Source of the DNA: Haliea sp.
GTDB lineage: Bacteria; Pseudomonadota; Gammaproteobacteria; Pseudomonadales; Halieaceae
Assembly: GCA_002692965.1 (NCBI GenBank)
Contig: NZNC01000004.1
Span: 62,001 to 126,000 of the forward strand
DNA: 64,000 nt
Direction of reading: 5' to 3'
The notes below the pieces were generated by a model that saw only the letters and a list, made by a program, of their open reading frames with translations, ran no database searches and was not told where the DNA came from. Shown here one piece after another: positions 17,944 through 63,870 of this stretch. Numbering within the stretch: position 1 is the stretch's first letter; the number at the start of each line of letters is the position of its first letter. A program made the position numbers and the translations under genes.

Positions 17944-19671
17944 TCAGCCGGCAGTGTCCGCAGCTTCCAGCGCCAGCGTCACCGGCTCCAGCAGCGCCGG
18001 GTGACGCTGGCCCAAGGCCTCCAGTTCCGCACGCGCCTGCCGGCGCAGGGCGGCCGATGCCGGGTCCTCGCAGCGCAGCAGCTCCGCCCGCAGCAGCCAT
18101 TCCTCGGGCCAGCTGGCCAGCTCGCGCGCCAGATCCTCGCGATCGACATCCGACTCGCCGCGCGCCAGCGCGTCCACCTGCCGGTACAGTGCCTGCAGGG
18201 CCGTGTCCCCGGATGGCGTGTACGAGGGCTCGGGCGTGGCGTCGCGGTAAAGCTGGTAACGCTCGCGGTCGGCCGTGCCGCCCCATACCGAATCAATGGC
18301 AGCGCCCACCGCCATGTCATAGCGCCCCCACTCGGGCTGGAACAGGGTGCGTCCGTCGAGATCGGTAACCGTGCAGTCCTCGAAGCTGAGCACCAGGTTG
18401 CGGTGCTCCTGCCGGAGAATATGACGCAGGCAGCCGCGCACGGTAATCCCGGAGAGAAACTCGAGGCTGACCTGTTCGTCGAGGCGGATATCGTGGGCTT
18501 TCAGCTCGTCCACCGAGTACTCCGAGAGGCAGCGGCTGAAGTCCTTGAGGCGACCCACCGGGGCGCCGAAACCACCGGCGTGAGCCTCGATGCCGTGGCC
18601 GTAGAGCTCGCTGTCCCGGAACGCCAGCTGCGTGGGGCCATCCGTGCGCAGATAGGTGGCATTGCCGACCGCATCGCAGCAGACCTCGACAAAGCGCCCG
18701 CTGACCTGGACCCCGGAGTCGTAGCCCGCGGTACAGACCGTCCCCGCGGCAATTGCCTTGCGCAGTGACTCGGCACCTCCGCGCTGAAAGCACATGCTGG
18801 CGGCAAACTCCTCCAGCACCTGGCTCAGGTGGCGGCAGCTTCGGGTCACGAAGAGTTGCGGCTGTTCGGTGGTGATGTCATAGGGGTAGCGCACCGCATC
18901 CACCGTCAGCGGCAATTTGCGGACGCGGCTGTCGTCGAGGCAGTGCCGGCTCTCACCCAGTGACGACAGCAGGCCGGCACCGAAGATGCGGTAGTCATCC
19001 AGCTCCCCGACCAGCCCGTACTCCACCGTCCACCAGTGCAGGCGCGTCAGCAGGGCCGCCTCCGAGGGCGCCTCTTCGCTCCGGGCCAGCTCCTGCAAGG
19101 TGGCTTCCGCCTCGCTGATGTCCTCGGGCCGGGTGCGCGGGTCCTCTTTAAGCCGGGACAGGCGACGCACTGCCTCGTACTGGGCCTCGTCGTGGCGCGA
19201 GGCCACCGCTTTCATGCCCACCTCGCCAAAGCGCTGCAGGAACTCCGCGTAATCGATATCGACGATAAATGGCGCGTGCCCCGCCGATTCGTGCACGATG
19301 TCCGGCGCCGGCGTGTAAAACAGGTGTTCGACACTGCGCATGTCGACGGCGATCACCAGGATGCGCAGGGCCTGGAATTCCATAAAGATCGCCGGCGGAA
19401 TGAACCCGTCCACAACCACCGCGCGCCAGCCCAGCCTGGCCAGGCAATCATTCATCTCTTCGATTGAAGGCACATGATCCAGGCTGATACCGGTGCGCTG
19501 CAGACCCTCGAGGTAGACGGGGTGGGCCGTGGTCCGCAGAGAAGCCACGAGATGGCGCAGGATGAAGCGCCACACGGCGTGATCCCGGGGCGTGTAGCGG
19601 GCCGGATCCTGCACCGCGACGAAGGGCCGCAGATGCGCCGGGAGACTGGCAATGATCTCTTGCTGCTGCAT
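17944..19671 (-). CDS. Aromatic amino acid (phenylalanine) hydroxylase, long form
   Basis: Non-heme iron, pterin-dependent monooxygenase, most likely phenylalanine to tyrosine. The iron ligands are His127 and His132 (PDIVHESAGHAPF) and Glu217 (HWWTVEYGLVGE). At 575 aa it is about twice the usual bacterial PhhA (about 260-300 aa): there is an insertion between residues 140 and 205 and a C-terminal region of about 280 residues (295-575) after the catalytic core, with no domain I recognise. RBS AGGAGG precedes ATG 19671. It lies 22 bp downstream of a MarR gene, so they form one operon. Tryptophan or tyrosine as substrate cannot be excluded. No pterin dehydratase gene is nearby. Confidence 0.88.
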   Translation of the reverse strand: MQQQEIIASLPAHLRPFVAVQDPARYTPRDHAVWRFILRHLVASLRTTAHPVYLEGLQRTGISLDHVPSIEEMNDCLARLGWRAVVVDGFIPPAIFMEFQALRILVIAVDMRSVEHLFYTPAPDIVHESAGHAPFIVDIDYAEFLQRFGEVGMKAVASRHDEAQYEAVRRLSRLKEDPRTRPEDISEAEATLQELARSEEAPSEAALLTRLHWWTVEYGLVGELDDYRIFGAGLLSSLGESRHCLDDSRVRKLPLTVDAVRYPYDITTEQPQLFVTRSCRHLSQVLEEFAASMCFQRGGAESLRKAIAAGTVCTAGYDSGVQVSGRFVEVCCDAVGNATYLRTDGPTQLAFRDSELYGHGIEAHAGGFGAPVGRLKDFSRCLSEYSVDELKAHDIRLDEQVSLEFLSGITVRGCLRHILRQEHRNLVLSFEDCTVTDLDGRTLFQPEWGRYDMAVGAAIDSVWGGTADRERYQLYRDATPEPSYTPSGDTALQALYRQVDALARGESDVDREDLARELASWPEEWLLRAELLRCEDPASAALRRQARAELEALGQRHPALLEPVTLALEAADTAG

Positions 19672-19693: not shown

Positions 19694-20152
19694 TCAGTCC
19701 GCCGTCTGTGCCTCGAGCGCCTGCAGGCGCTGGTCCAGGGTATCCAGAAGCTCGAACAGCTGCGCCCGCTGCCCCTGCGACAGGGGTTCGAGGAAATCCG
19801 CCTCCCACGCCAGCACCTCAGGTTCGATACGCCGATAGAGTGCGCGCCCCGAGGGGGTCAGGCTGAGCCAGGCGGCGCGGCTATCCTCTTCACAGGGCCG
19901 CCGCTGGAGCAGGTCACGCCTGGTCAGGCCCGCCACTGCCCGGGACACACGCACCTTGTCCATGGCCGTCAATCCGGTAATCTGGCTGGCACGAAGCTCG
20001 GGGTACTCCGCCAGGGTTACCAGGACACGCCACTCCGGCACGGAGATACCGAAGCGTTCCATGTAGATGCGCGAGAGGGAGTCGCTGATTCCCTGGGCCA
20101 GCCGGTTGGCCCGGTAGGGCAGGAACCTGGCGAGAGTCAATCGGGTGGGCAT
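19694..20152 (-). CDS. MarR-family transcriptional regulator
   Basis: 152-aa winged-helix regulator: VPEWRVLVTLAEYPELRASQITGLTAMDKVRVSRAVAGLTRRDLL is organised as the MarR helix-turn-helix, followed by a basic wing (RRPCEEDSRAAWLSLTPSG) and a long dimerisation helix. RBS AGGAG precedes ATG 20152. It is the first gene of the operon with the aromatic amino acid hydroxylase and its promoter carries a symmetric repeat, so autoregulation plus control of the hydroxylase is likely. Ligand unknown; an aromatic acid is the obvious candidate. Confidence 0.93.
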   Translation of the reverse strand: MPTRLTLARFLPYRANRLAQGISDSLSRIYMERFGISVPEWRVLVTLAEYPELRASQITGLTAMDKVRVSRAVAGLTRRDLLQRRPCEEDSRAAWLSLTPSGRALYRRIEPEVLAWEADFLEPLSQGQRAQLFELLDTLDQRLQALEAQTAD

Positions 20153-20168: not shown

Positions 20169-20214
20169 GAGTGAAACAGGCCGCCAATATAGTTTCACTC
20201 GCAACCAGTGTCCA
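20169..20214 (-). promoter_or_regulatory. MarR/hydroxylase operon promoter with flanking inverted repeat
   Basis: On the minus strand TGGACA (20214-20209), a 17-bp spacer and TATATT (20191-20186) form a good sigma-70 promoter. The 9-bp inverted repeat GAGTGAAAC (20169-20177) / GTTTCACTC (20192-20200), separated by 14 bp, brackets the -10 box: one arm lies in the spacer and the other at the expected start of transcription. A repressor bound to both arms would block the promoter. Confidence 0.65.
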
Positions 20215-54765: not shown

Positions 54766-55854
54766 TCAGGAGGTGCTTTTCTCCGCCTCCCCGAGCACGC
54801 CCCGCGCCATCTGGTCCCGCTCGATGGACTCGAACAGGGCCTTGAAGTTCCCCTCGCCGAAGCCCTCGTCATCCTTGCGCTGGATAAACTCGAAGAACAC
54901 GGGTCCCAGGAGGTTGGCGGAAAAAATCTGCAACAGTAAGCGCGGCGCCCCACCCTCCGTAGTACCGTCGAGGAGAATGCCCCGCCGACGCAGTTCGTCC
55001 ACCGGCTCGCCGTGGCCCGGCAATCGCTCCTCCAGCATATCGTAGTAGGTGTCAGGGGGCGGCGGCATGAAGCGCAGGCCCGCCGCCTTGAGCCGGTCGT
55101 AGCAGGCGAGGATGTCGTCACAGGCGAAGGCGATATGTTGAATACCCTCACCGTTATAGGCCATGAGAAACTCCTCGATCTGGCCACCGCCGCGAGCCTC
55201 TTCGTTGAGCGGGATACGGATCTTGCCGTCCGGGGCCGTCATCGCCTTGGACAGCAGCCCGGTGTATTCGCCCTTGATATCGAAGTAGCGGATTTCCCGG
55301 AAATTGAACAGCTCTTCGTAATATTTGGCCCAGTAGTCCATTCGCCCCCGGTAGACATTGTGAGTCAGGTGATCCAGCGTGTGGAAACCGAAGCCGGGCG
55401 GGCGGCGCTCGACGCCGTCCAGCCAGTGAAAATCGATGTCGTAGATGCTCCAGCCCTCGGCGTAGCGGTCGATCAAGTACAGTGTCGCCCCCCCGATGCC
55501 CTTGATCGCCGGCAGGCGCAACTCCATCGGGCCGGTCTCGACATGGACCGGCTGGGCACCCCGCTCCAGGGCGCGCCGGTAGGCCCGGGTAGCATCCCGG
55601 ACGCGGAAAGCCATGCCACAGGCAGAAGGGCCGTGCTCCCGGGCGTAGTACCAGGCGTGACTGCGCGGCTCGTAGTTGGTGACGAAATTGATGTCACCTT
55701 GTCGCCACAGTTCGACGGCCTTGGTCCGGTGGCGTGCCACACGGGTAAAGCCCATGGATTCGAAAACCGGCTCCAGCATGCCCTTCTCCGGCGCGGTGAA
55801 CTCGACGAACTCGAAGCCGTCCAGCCCCATGGGATTGTCAAACAGATCTGTCAT
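54766..55854 (-). CDS. hppD: 4-hydroxyphenylpyruvate dioxygenase
   Basis: Converts 4-hydroxyphenylpyruvate to homogentisate in tyrosine catabolism. 362 aa; iron ligands His162 ([12 protein letters not shown]), His240 (GIQHIAF) and Glu322 (FFEFIQRK) match Pseudomonas HPPD (161, 240, 322). GGAGG precedes ATG 55854; the frame upstream to 55911 overlaps the operator and is not used. Functionally joins the aromatic amino acid hydroxylase at 18-20 kb, although 35 kb away. No homogentisate dioxygenase in the window. Confidence 0.97.
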
Positions 55855-55893
55855 CGGCCTGCCTCCCGGGCACCGCCTGGTGTGGAGGCCCGA

Positions 55894-55938
55894 AGTATAG
55901 TTGCCGGCCAAACTGGTTGCAAATGTAACCAGTTTGGC
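55894..55938 (-). promoter_or_regulatory. hppD promoter overlapped by a 32-bp palindromic operator
   Basis: Minus strand TTGCAA (55922-55917), 17-bp spacer, TATACT (55899-55894). The perfect 12-bp inverted repeat GCCAAACTGGTT (55907-55918) / AACCAGTTTGGC (55927-55938), with an 8-bp centre GCAAATGT, covers the -35 box. The centre itself keeps partial symmetry. A regulator bound here would exclude or contact RNA polymerase. Confidence 0.75.
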
Positions 55939-56074
55939 AAGACCCTTTCCCCGGCATCAGTCCGGTTGGACTATCCGCACCACCAGAGATGCTTCTGCCC
56001 CACTCGCTGGCCGCCAAGCAGGCCCTGGGTCATACTCGCGACTGGTTGATAACAACGACTCTGGAATACCTGTC

Positions 56075-57880
56075 ATGCCCAACGGTTACCGCGCCCTACT
56101 CGCCCCCCTTTGCGCCCTGCTCGTCAGCACCAGTCACGCCACCGCTGCCGGTTCGCGAGCCTGGTTCGGCGAACTTCACGTGCACACCATGAACTCCCCC
56201 GATGCCTTCATGCTGAACGTGCGCACCTCCCCCGACGACGCCTATCGCTTTGCCCTGGGGGAAGCCATCGAGCATGTCAGTGGCGTTGAAATCCAGCTGC
56301 GGGAGCCACTGGACTTTGTCGCCATCACCGATCACTCCGAATACATGGGTATCCTGCCGCGCCTGTTCGACGAAAACAGCGAGCTGTCCGAGCTGGAACT
56401 GGCCGGCCGCCTGGCCGCCAATGACCCCGAGGAACGCCAGCACGCCCTGCTGGAAGTTCTGATGTCCATGGGCGACAACCGGCCCCTGGAGGCGCTGGTC
56501 GACCCCGACCTGCGCCACAGCATCTGGCAGAATTATGTCCGCCTGGCGGAGCAATACTACCGGCCGGGAGAGTTCACCACCCTGGTGGGCTATGAATGGA
56601 CCTCATCCGGTGGCATGGAAGAGATCAACCTGCACCGGAACGTGATCTTTCGCAGCGAAAAGGTCCCGGCGCAACCTTTCTCCAGTTTCGATAGCCCGGA
56701 CCCCCGCAAGCTCTGGGAATGGCTGGATGCCCAGCGCGACGCGGGCATCGAGGCGCTGGCCATTTCCCACAACTCCAACCTCAGCAACGGTTTGATGTTC
56801 CCGGCGGAAAAAGCTTTCGACGGCAAGCCCATTGATGCCGAGTACGCCGAGTTGCGCCAGCGCAATGAACCCCTGGTGGAAATCGCCCAGATCAAGGGCA
56901 CCTCGGAGAGTCACCCACTGCTGTCACCCAACGACGAATGGGCGGGCTTTGAATTGCTGGAAGACCTGCTCGGCGGCCAGGGCACCATCGGCGAGCCCAA
57001 GGGCAGCTACGCCCGCGACGCCTGGCTCACAGGCCTGCAGATGGAAGAAACCCGGGGCTTCAACCCCTACCGTTTCGGCGTGATTGCCGCCAGCGACAGT
57101 CACAACTCCGGCTCCCAGGTCGAGGAAGACAACTACCACGGCAAGATCGGCAGCGCCGACGGCACCCCGGAAACTCGCCGCGGTGGCAGCTTTATCAACA
57201 CGCACCACATCCGCTACAGCTCCTCCGGCCTGGCCGGTGTCTGGGCCCCGGAAAACACCCGGGAGCAGGTCTATGACGCGCTGGCCCGGCGGGAGGTCTT
57301 CGGCACCAGCGGCCCGAGGATCCAGGTGCGTTTCTTCGCCGGGCCGGGCTGGCCGGAAGACATTCTGGAGCAGCACGACTGGGTCGAACAGGGTTACGCC
57401 GGCGGCGTACCCATGGGCGGCGACCTGAGCGCGGCCGATGTCGCCGAGGGCGGCCCGGAATTCCTGCTCTGGGCGGTCAAGGACGCCTCGAGTGCCTGGC
57501 TGCAGCGCCTGCAGGTGGTCAAGGGCTGGGTCGAGGATGGCGAAACCCGGGAGCAGGTCTACGACGTCGCCTGTGCCGACGGCCTGAGCCCGGACCCGCA
57601 GACCCACCGCTGCCCCGACAACGGCGCCACGGTGGACCTGAAGACCTGTGACTTCGATCGCCACCGCGGCGACGGCCAGCTGGCGACGCGCTGGCGCGAC
57701 CCGGCATTCAACCCGGATCAGCGCGCCTTCTATTATGTGCGCGTGCTGGAAAACCCTACCTGCCGCTGGAGTACCTGGGACAGCCTGCGCACCGGCCTGC
57801 CGCTGCCGGAGGACGTACCGCCGACACTGCAGGAGCGTGCCTGGAGTTCACCCATCTGGTATCGGCCGGAAGAAAGCTGA
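56075..57880 (+). CDS. Exported DUF3604 protein (PHP-like metal hydrolase fold)
   Basis: 601 aa with a signal peptide (hydrophobic from residue 6 to 22, ALLAPLCALLVST; cleavage near ATAAG). The motifs resemble the PHP superfamily: GELHVHT (His35, His37), ITDHSEY, ISHNSNLSNG, ASDSHNSGS. The region after about residue 420 carries several cysteines (VACADG, HRCPDN, KTCDF, NPTC). I chose ATG 56075; the longest frame extends to 55901 inside the operator. Function unknown; a periplasmic metal-dependent hydrolase is the inference. Paralogue at 61920-63791. Confidence 0.85.
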   Translation: MPNGYRALLAPLCALLVSTSHATAAGSRAWFGELHVHTMNSPDAFMLNVRTSPDDAYRFALGEAIEHVSGVEIQLREPLDFVAITDHSEYMGILPRLFDENSELSELELAGRLAANDPEERQHALLEVLMSMGDNRPLEALVDPDLRHSIWQNYVRLAEQYYRPGEFTTLVGYEWTSSGGMEEINLHRNVIFRSEKVPAQPFSSFDSPDPRKLWEWLDAQRDAGIEALAISHNSNLSNGLMFPAEKAFDGKPIDAEYAELRQRNEPLVEIAQIKGTSESHPLLSPNDEWAGFELLEDLLGGQGTIGEPKGSYARDAWLTGLQMEETRGFNPYRFGVIAASDSHNSGSQVEEDNYHGKIGSADGTPETRRGGSFINTHHIRYSSSGLAGVWAPENTREQVYDALARREVFGTSGPRIQVRFFAGPGWPEDILEQHDWVEQGYAGGVPMGGDLSAADVAEGGPEFLLWAVKDASSAWLQRLQVVKGWVEDGETREQVYDVACADGLSPDPQTHRCPDNGATVDLKTCDFDRHRGDGQLATRWRDPAFNPDQRAFYYVRVLENPTCRWSTWDSLRTGLPLPEDVPPTLQERAWSSPIWYRPEES

Positions 57881-61919: not shown

Positions 61920-63791
61920 TCACTCCGGCCGATACCAGATCGGCGACGTATAGGCGCGCTCCTGGTGCACCAGCTCCGTTCCCTCGGGCAGATCCACGCC
62001 GAGACGCACCTTGTCATAGAGCGTCCAGCGCGGCGTGGGAATTTCCAATACCCGCAGGTAATAGACCGCGGCTTGCGCGGGGTCGAAATCGGGGTCGGTC
62101 CACAGCGCAGACAGCTCGGCACTGCCAATGCTGTTGCTGTAACGGGCCTTTTCGCGATCCACGCTGTCGCCAACCGGGGGCAACTTGCCCCGGGCGTCCG
62201 GCTGCCGGTCACCCGACCAGGCAACATCGTAAACGGCTTCGTGCATTTCACCCCAGCTGTCCAGCCAGCCCTTGACGATCTGCACCCGATCCAGGTTAGC
62301 CCCCTCGGGATCCTTCAGAGCGTGCACCATGAAACGCGGTGCACCCGCGGCGCCGGAGGAGCTCAGCTCACCGCCCATGGGGACCCCCTTGCGATAACCG
62401 TTCAGCGCGGGATTGGGCCCCTGCAGATCCTGCTCCTCCAGGTTCCAGCCCCCAAAGAAGCGCACGCGCATGCGCGGCCCGGTAGTGGCGTAGACCTCGC
62501 GACGCTGCATGGCGTCAAACAGGGCCTCTCGGGTATTGTCGGTGGCCCAGACCGCGGCATAGCCGGAGGAGACTTGCAGGGTATTGGACATTTCCGCCTC
62601 GGGTATGCCCCAGATGGTCTGGGTGCGCCGGGGCCCGGGTTCATCCCCCGCCTTCTTGCCCCAGAAATTGTCCTCCTCGACGGCGGCCAGGGCGGTATGG
62701 GAATCCGTGCTGCCGATCATGCCAAACTGGAAGGGATTCACGCCGAGCTGCTGCCCCAGTCGCAGCCCCAGTTGCAACGCGGGGCGCGCGTACTGATAGG
62801 GCTGCATCTCCGGACGCTGGGCCTCGTTCATCGCGATATTGAACTGGTCCCAGGTACCGTAGTCGGCAAACTCGTCATTGGGCGAAAGCAGCGGATGGGC
62901 CTCGCTGTCGCCCTTGATCTGGGTAACCTCCAGCAGCGGCTCCCAGCGGGCCCGACGCCGGGCATAGTCCGTGTCCAGGGGCTGGCCGTCGAGGGTCAGG
63001 TCGGAAAACATCTGCCCGCCACTCAGATTGCTGTTGTGGGGAATCGCCAACACCTGGCCGCCGGTCTTTTCCTCGTAATCCGCCAGCCATTGCCACAGGT
63101 CTTCGGGGTCGTCGCTGTCGAAGGCAGAAAAGGGCGTCACCTGATCGGCGCGTGCAGAACCATCGCGGAAGACCATGATCCGGTGAAGGTTGTTGCCGCC
63201 CGGCATGGCCGACCACTCGTAACCGATGAAGGCGGTAAACACACCCGGCTGGTTTGCCGCATCGGCCGCGCGGTTATTGGCTTCCCAGGGAGACGGCACG
63301 CCCTCCGGCAAGGTCAGTAGCGGCTCGCCATCCTCGTAGGAGTTGCCGATTTCCAGCATCAGCCGGCCGAAGGCGGTGGGCTCTCGCTGCTCGACGATGC
63401 GCTGCCAGGCGCGCGCCGTTTCATTCTGCATCATGCGGGGGTCGGCATCGCGGATCAGCGGCATTACTCCCAGGTACTCGGCGTGATCCGCCACGACCAG
63501 GAAATCCAGCGGTCGGCTCAGGCGGGCCGGCATGCCATTGGCCGCCGTCACGGTCTCACCCCGGGCAAAGCGGTAGGCGGCCTCGGGGCCGAGGCCGGTG
63601 ACCCCGAACAGGTTCGCGTCCATGGACACCGAGGTGTGCAGGTGGGTATCCCCCCAGTAAACCTCCCGGGGGTAGTCCTGATTGGCCCAGGGCGAGTAGT
63701 CGCGACGCGGGTCGGGCGCCTCATCCTGGGCGGCCAAAGGCACGGCCAGCGAAGCCAGCAAAAGCGGAATCAAACCTAGGGGACTACGCAT
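61920..63791 (-). CDS. Exported DUF3604 protein (PHP-like fold), paralogue
   Basis: 623 aa with a signal peptide (PLGLIPLLLASLAVPLAAQ, cleavage after AAQ near residue 22). Same motif order as the protein at 56075: GDTHLHT (His50, His52), VADHAEYLG, IPHNSNLSGG, STDSHTA, and both end in SPIWYRPE. AGGAGGA precedes ATG 63791; the longer frame from 63833 has no RBS. It lacks most of the C-terminal cysteines of its paralogue, so the two are related but not a recent duplicate. Function unknown, likely periplasmic. Confidence 0.85.
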   Translation of the reverse strand: MRSPLGLIPLLLASLAVPLAAQDEAPDPRRDYSPWANQDYPREVYWGDTHLHTSVSMDANLFGVTGLGPEAAYRFARGETVTAANGMPARLSRPLDFLVVADHAEYLGVMPLIRDADPRMMQNETARAWQRIVEQREPTAFGRLMLEIGNSYEDGEPLLTLPEGVPSPWEANNRAADAANQPGVFTAFIGYEWSAMPGGNNLHRIMVFRDGSARADQVTPFSAFDSDDPEDLWQWLADYEEKTGGQVLAIPHNSNLSGGQMFSDLTLDGQPLDTDYARRRARWEPLLEVTQIKGDSEAHPLLSPNDEFADYGTWDQFNIAMNEAQRPEMQPYQYARPALQLGLRLGQQLGVNPFQFGMIGSTDSHTALAAVEEDNFWGKKAGDEPGPRRTQTIWGIPEAEMSNTLQVSSGYAAVWATDNTREALFDAMQRREVYATTGPRMRVRFFGGWNLEEQDLQGPNPALNGYRKGVPMGGELSSSGAAGAPRFMVHALKDPEGANLDRVQIVKGWLDSWGEMHEAVYDVAWSGDRQPDARGKLPPVGDSVDREKARYSNSIGSAELSALWTDPDFDPAQAAVYYLRVLEIPTPRWTLYDKVRLGVDLPEGTELVHQERAYTSPIWYRPE

Positions 63792-63870
63792 ACTGCGTCC
63801 TCCTGCAAATGTCTTGTTATTGTTTTTCCGCACCGTCCGTCGAAAGACGGCAGGACTGTGACGCCCGGGT

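Follow-up and report, generated by a model that had tools for sequence, protein, structure and literature searches.

The 32-bp palindrome upstream of hppD, the gene for 4-hydroxyphenylpyruvate dioxygenase, most probably (we put the chance at roughly 85%) serves as the operator of a MarR-family protein encoded 35 kb away in the same 64-kb window (the whole stretch of DNA analysed), which would be an HmgS-like repressor of phenylalanine and tyrosine breakdown. The reading draws on an operator core that recurs at three promoters of the pathway, on its conservation in relatives and on its co-occurrence with the MarR gene. Judged from sequence comparison, one switch probably controls the tyrosine-breakdown pathway. 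The features are listed in Table 1.

Table 1. Coordinates and supporting evidence for features of the 64-kb window.
Feature	Position	Strand	Evidence
32-bp palindrome	55907..55938	.	Exact match
Conserved 18-bp operator core, minus strand TGGTTACATTTGCAACCA	55914..55931	.	Matrix score 27.93 and conservation in relatives
hppD promoter, TTGCAA-17-TATACT	55894..55922	-	Promoter scan; -35 within the right half of the core
hppD, 4-hydroxyphenylpyruvate dioxygenase	54766..55854	-	4HPPD equivalog
Proposed MarR-family repressor acting at all three promoters	about 19694..20152	-	Pfam MarR_2, 42.5 bits; site upstream in many relatives
Aromatic amino acid hydroxylase, phenylalanine hydroxylase type	17944..19671	-	NF010657, 663.6 bits (cut-off 346)
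Operator at the MarR-hydroxylase promoter, between TGGACA and TATATT	20190..20207	.	Matrix score 23.4, promoter-like hexamers

The palindrome at the hppD promoter

The palindrome has the form GCCAAACTGGTT-N8-AACCAGTTTGGC, found without a mismatch by an exact search of the window; when extended, its arms reach 15 nt, are 93% complementary and are spaced by 2 nt. It lies 52 bp upstream of the ATG (55854) of hppD, the product of which scores 395.2 bits against the 4HPPD equivalog model (cut-off 277). The promoter is read on the minus strand towards hppD, with TTGCAA starting at 55922, a 17-bp spacer and TATACT ending at 55894. An earlier note on this DNA was right that a palindrome stands in front of hppD and overlaps its -35 hexamer, although the span that it gave, 55894-55938, runs on to the end of the -10 at 55894, beyond the palindrome itself. 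It also stated that no regulator is adjacent, and this is true for the reading frames inspected on the rimP and DUF3604 sides of hppD. DUF3604 proteins are encoded at 55901-57880 and 61920-63833 (737 and 810 bits), separated by genes for a TauD-type dioxygenase and an amidohydrolase and by a frame without a Pfam match. Since the first DUF3604 gene is divergent from hppD, the operator might also touch its promoter.

By itself, the bare palindrome is mildly unusual. Counting hairpins of 12 or more perfect pairs with a spacer of 0-8, we find one in the window; among 1000 simulated windows with the same dinucleotide make-up, 75 contain one or more. The inner 24-bp pattern occurs exactly once in the genome to which the window belongs, and its five matches with up to three mismatches in that genome are at the level of the control (four). 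The palindrome gains its weight from the conservation of its inner core, not from the rarity of the hairpin.

A search of 58 genomes gave hppD matches at E 0.001, some of them weak, in 32, and the upstream DNA of 30 loci was inspected; several close relatives have in common the core AGTTNCANNTGNAACT, not the full 32-bp palindrome. We then compared 140 genomes of a family that we infer to be Halieaceae, of which 45 have hppD at 1e-100; the 45 upstream regions used come from 44 of these (G081 is cut by a contig end) and from G016, which has a partial gene. The core, with at most one mismatch, is found upstream of hppD in 16 of the 45, where it is kept among divergent flanks. In all 16, TTGNAA lies within the core and a hexamer resembling a -10 comes 16-18 bp further on (TATACT in 15, TACTGT in G159). 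We base the name of the family on the Haliea and Parahaliea loci L107-L110, whose operators and flanks agree with those of the family loci L211, L212, L055 and L054. Outside the family but in the same order, genome G037 has a MarR relative (45% identity) divergent from hppD, with a matching site between the two genes. The earlier note had proposed conservation of the arms upstream of hppD orthologues as a check on its reading: the inner arms are conserved, the outer ones (GCCAAA...TTTGGC) are not. The palindrome thus very probably serves a regulator as its operator at the hppD promoter, as that note held, whereas its notion of a dedicated regulator is not supported, the core being shared with marR and hmgA.

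One core at three promoters of the pathway

The distant regulator belongs to the MarR family, with 42.5 bits against PF12802 (cut-off 27) and 33.8 bits against PF01047 (cut-off 24.6), and the hydroxylase gene (phhA) follows it in the same direction. Its own promoter carries AGTTTCACTCGCAACC at 20191-20206, and this core fills the spacer of the scanned promoter TGGACA-17-TATATT. Elsewhere in the same genome, GGTTTCACTTGCAACT lies directly upstream of hmgA, the reading frame of which is overlapped by the following fumarylacetoacetase frame (fahA). There the core closely follows a TATATT that was picked out by eye; the promoter scan calls no promoter at hmgA.

We scored these sites with a matrix (consensus TAGTTTCAAATGAAACTA) built on 65 sites, none from the window's own genome, which were chosen with a consensus drawn up after the window site was known. 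Scoring covered the window and locus L035, and the regulon may have further members elsewhere in the genome. The scores are 27.9 for hppD, 23.4 for the MarR promoter and 27.8 for hmgA, and the next best position of the window reaches 4.6. In 20 Mb of simulated sequence the hppD and hmgA scores were never attained; at each site's own score, the expectation per 3.8 Mb is 0 for hppD, 0.19 for marR-phhA and 0 for hmgA. Pattern scans, unlike the matrix derived from relatives, did not separate signal from noise. In the own genome AGTTNCANNTGNAACT with up to two mismatches has 102 matches against 145 for the reversed control, with no enrichment. A strict core pattern, picked after the three promoters had been inspected, matches exactly these three there, against four matches of its control, and across nine genomes it gives 21 matches against 43. 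Both scans are uninformative, because the controls match as often or more often. On the matrix scores we rejected the idea of different motifs at the hppD and MarR sites. The contrast that had been drawn between the two palindromes is therefore wrong for the inner core, and the suggestion that the two halves of the pathway have different regulators is not supported: since the matrix finds the same core at all three promoters, one regulator for phhA, hppD and hmgA-fahA is the better reading.

MarR protein matches at E 0.001, paralogues included, occur in 21 of 25 genomes; at the 22 MarR loci examined (of 30), the core lies upstream with at most one mismatch in 15 and with two in one, and is absent from six. 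A scan of named genomes was confined to the best 80 of 578 confirmed MarR loci. Among these 80, the flanks contain hppD, hmgA or phhA in 54, and the core with at most one mismatch lies within 300 bp upstream of the MarR gene in 54, compared with 8 of 2137 control stretches from the same loci; it was not found upstream in the other 26. The site is present in 49 of the 54 loci with such neighbours and in 5 of the 26 without them. The named loci with a site include Haliea and Parahaliea, Xanthomonadales and alphaproteobacteria, and in L107-L110 the hydroxylase lies downstream of MarR, as in the window.

At family hmgA loci, the core is found upstream in 8 of 15 and is lacking in 7 (L232, with a partial gene, was left out). 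Two tandem cores lie between divergent MarR and hmgA genes in G019 (L059/L087) and G086 (L225/L230). Four genomes have a second MarR paralogue (48-49% identity) about 3 kb from hmgA (L071 in G032, L072 in G010, G068:C89:115017-115454 and G071:C47:156647-157084) as well as a closer MarR relative (64-65%), and in these four the pathway may be split between the two paralogues.

Co-occurrence with MarR and competing explanations

Within the family, all 16 genomes with the hppD site encode a MarR relative that is 51% or more identical (a threshold set by us), as do 4 of the 29 without it (Fisher p 7.5e-9, a value that is only indicative, as the genomes are related); the four are G009, G063, G064 and G083. 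Loci without the MarR site tend to show another regulator: in 22 of the 29, hppD has as its neighbour an Lrp/AsnC gene that is 61% or more identical to the G016 one (four of the 22 were compared over 85-87 residues only); in three the locus contains a 35-36% relative, and four have none in the sequence covered. None of the 16 loci with the MarR site has such a gene at 61% or more, the highest identity being 34% (G017). The Lrp/AsnC gene is divergent from hppD in other genera of the family, for example at L034:888-1346 and L198:891-1358. Within one family hppD seems to be tied to one of two regulators, MarR or Lrp/AsnC, and the one has apparently replaced the other; that Lrp/AsnC regulates hppD is a guess from its position.

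We propose that a MarR dimer would bind the 16-18-bp core (TRGTTNCANNTGNAACYA) and repress phhA, hppD, hmgA-fahA and its own gene by covering their promoters. The -35 hexamer of hppD is part of the core, the marR-phhA core occupies the spacer between -35 and -10, and the one at hmgA-fahA closely follows TATATT, so that at each promoter a bound dimer would exclude RNA polymerase. MarR regulators of aromatic breakdown are generally released by aromatic compounds of the pathway, and for this reason we infer that an intermediate, most likely homogentisate or 4-hydroxyphenylpyruvate, would release the protein. Some MarR proteins act as activators, and this one might activate, or both activate and repress. 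We regard this as improbable: an activator site is expected upstream of the promoter, whereas the core covers the -35 at hppD, sits within the promoter at marR-phhA and comes after it at hmgA-fahA, and a position that differs in this way relative to -35 and -10 suits a blocking repressor better.

A separate, dedicated regulator that binds the hppD palindrome and leaves MarR in control of the hydroxylase operon only would account for the different outer arms of the hppD and marR sites and for the lack of a regulator gene next to hppD in the window. It would leave unexplained the shared core at hppD, marR and hmgA, the many other genomes in which a MarR gene preceded by the site is found close to hppD or hmgA, and the co-occurrence of the hppD site with MarR in the family; we hold it to be as improbable as activation. 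Less probable still is control of hppD by TyrR/PhhR, as in Pseudomonas. The TyrR box has the consensus TGTAAA-N6-TTTACA. No match to it with up to three mismatches lies near hppD, and the three matches with three mismatches in the window compare with a chance mean of 2.42, which led us to reject such a box at hppD even though several gammaproteobacteria have their hpd, hmg and phh genes under TyrR/PhhR control, according to the accessible part of PMC5343134. Least credible of all is that the palindrome arose by chance or is a terminator between divergent genes. The simulated windows speak for chance, but the core is conserved and a scan of 55820-56120 found no terminator-like site; a chance origin is refuted for the core and possible for the outer arms.

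Outer arms of the operators and known regulators

The repressor reading leaves the outer arms to be accounted for. We compared the arms of 46 non-redundant sites, of which two come from the MAG L115, of undefined family. Positions 2-12 beyond the core are complementary between the arms in 202 cases against 153.5 +/- 10.3, a number reached in none of 5000 shuffles that paired left arms with right arms from other sites; positions 13-24 of the same sites show no excess (147 against 142.6). A mixed set of 61 sites, taken over positions 1-12, gives 290 against 252.1 +/- 11.6 (2 of 5000 shuffles). When this set is split, the 23 family sites have 104 complementary outer-arm positions against 80.9 +/- 7.1 (6 of 5000), whereas the 38 sites from outside the family show no clear excess (134 against 124.2 +/- 9.0; 723 of 5000). 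We therefore rejected a universal effect, given the result for the 38 sites and that at 13-24 bp. The excess is due to a minority (the hppD sites of the window, G032, G160 and G020 and the marR sites of L052, L055 and L216), most sites being near chance. Arms that are complementary to each other yet unlike between promoters are seen at 55907-55938 of the window and in L009, L052, L055 and L216. No excess was seen in a control set of 32 non-redundant LexA-like boxes, drawn from 30 of the family's genomes (93 against 97.1 +/- 8.4); the comparison is imperfect, because these boxes often stand in tandem.

The outer arms differ among the hppD, marR and hmgA sites of the own genome, and recognition by MarR does not explain them, since the three have unrelated arms. 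Folded as single-stranded DNA, the hppD site of the window gives -12.8 kcal/mol (z -4.1) and L052 gives -19.3 (z -7.8), whereas the own marR and hmgA sites are not unusual, which argues against a hairpin required by the regulon as a whole. One tentative and rather unlikely possibility is that some family operators keep their outer arms complementary while the sequence drifts, either through a hairpin or cruciform holding the -35 or through template switching that re-perfects or lengthens palindromes. Template switching creates and repairs inverted repeats and extends the identity between arms, according to the accessible parts of PMC8794818 and PMC3820800, respectively; in the open-access literature, as far as our partial coverage extends, we found no work on it at bacterial operators. 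If true, either reading would mean a new force shaping bacterial operators; as it stands, the covariation of the outer arms is an odd, statistically supported leftover.

Among known regulators, the closest in family and role is HmgS, a MarR-family protein that, in the accessible part of PMC5343134, is predicted to control hmgAB in several Alteromonadales and Pseudoalteromonadales, with 3 genomes and 6 sites listed; in these lineages it stands in for TyrR, HmgR and HmgQ. Both would act on the homogentisate pathway through a local operator; HmgS sites serve hmgAB, while those of the window regulator cover phhA, hppD and hmgA-fahA. Linkage of the HmgS type is seen in the sites at hppD and hmgA of the own genome and in the 54 of the best 80 of 578 MarR loci near hppD, hmgA or phhA, with the caveat that the window MarR gene has the hydroxylase gene as its partner and not hmgA. 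HmgR of Pseudomonas putida, which represses hmgABC with homogentisate as anti-repressor (PMC5343134, accessible part), is from a different protein family, IclR. HpaR (TIGR02337) is a related MarR regulator of aromatic breakdown, but the window protein, which scores 42.3 bits where the equivalog cut-off is 121.2, is not HpaR. The Lrp/AsnC gene is similar in standing beside hppD in the same family and different in its regulator family. A closer description of MarR control of tyrosine or homogentisate breakdown than that in PMC5343134 was not found in the part of the open-access literature covered.

In place of an unknown dedicated regulator of hppD, the analysis names a candidate, gives a consensus for its site and proposes a regulon that spans the pathway, with phhA, hppD and hmgA-fahA. 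The results suggest that tyrosine breakdown is under HmgS-like MarR control well beyond the three genomes reported in the accessible part of PMC5343134.
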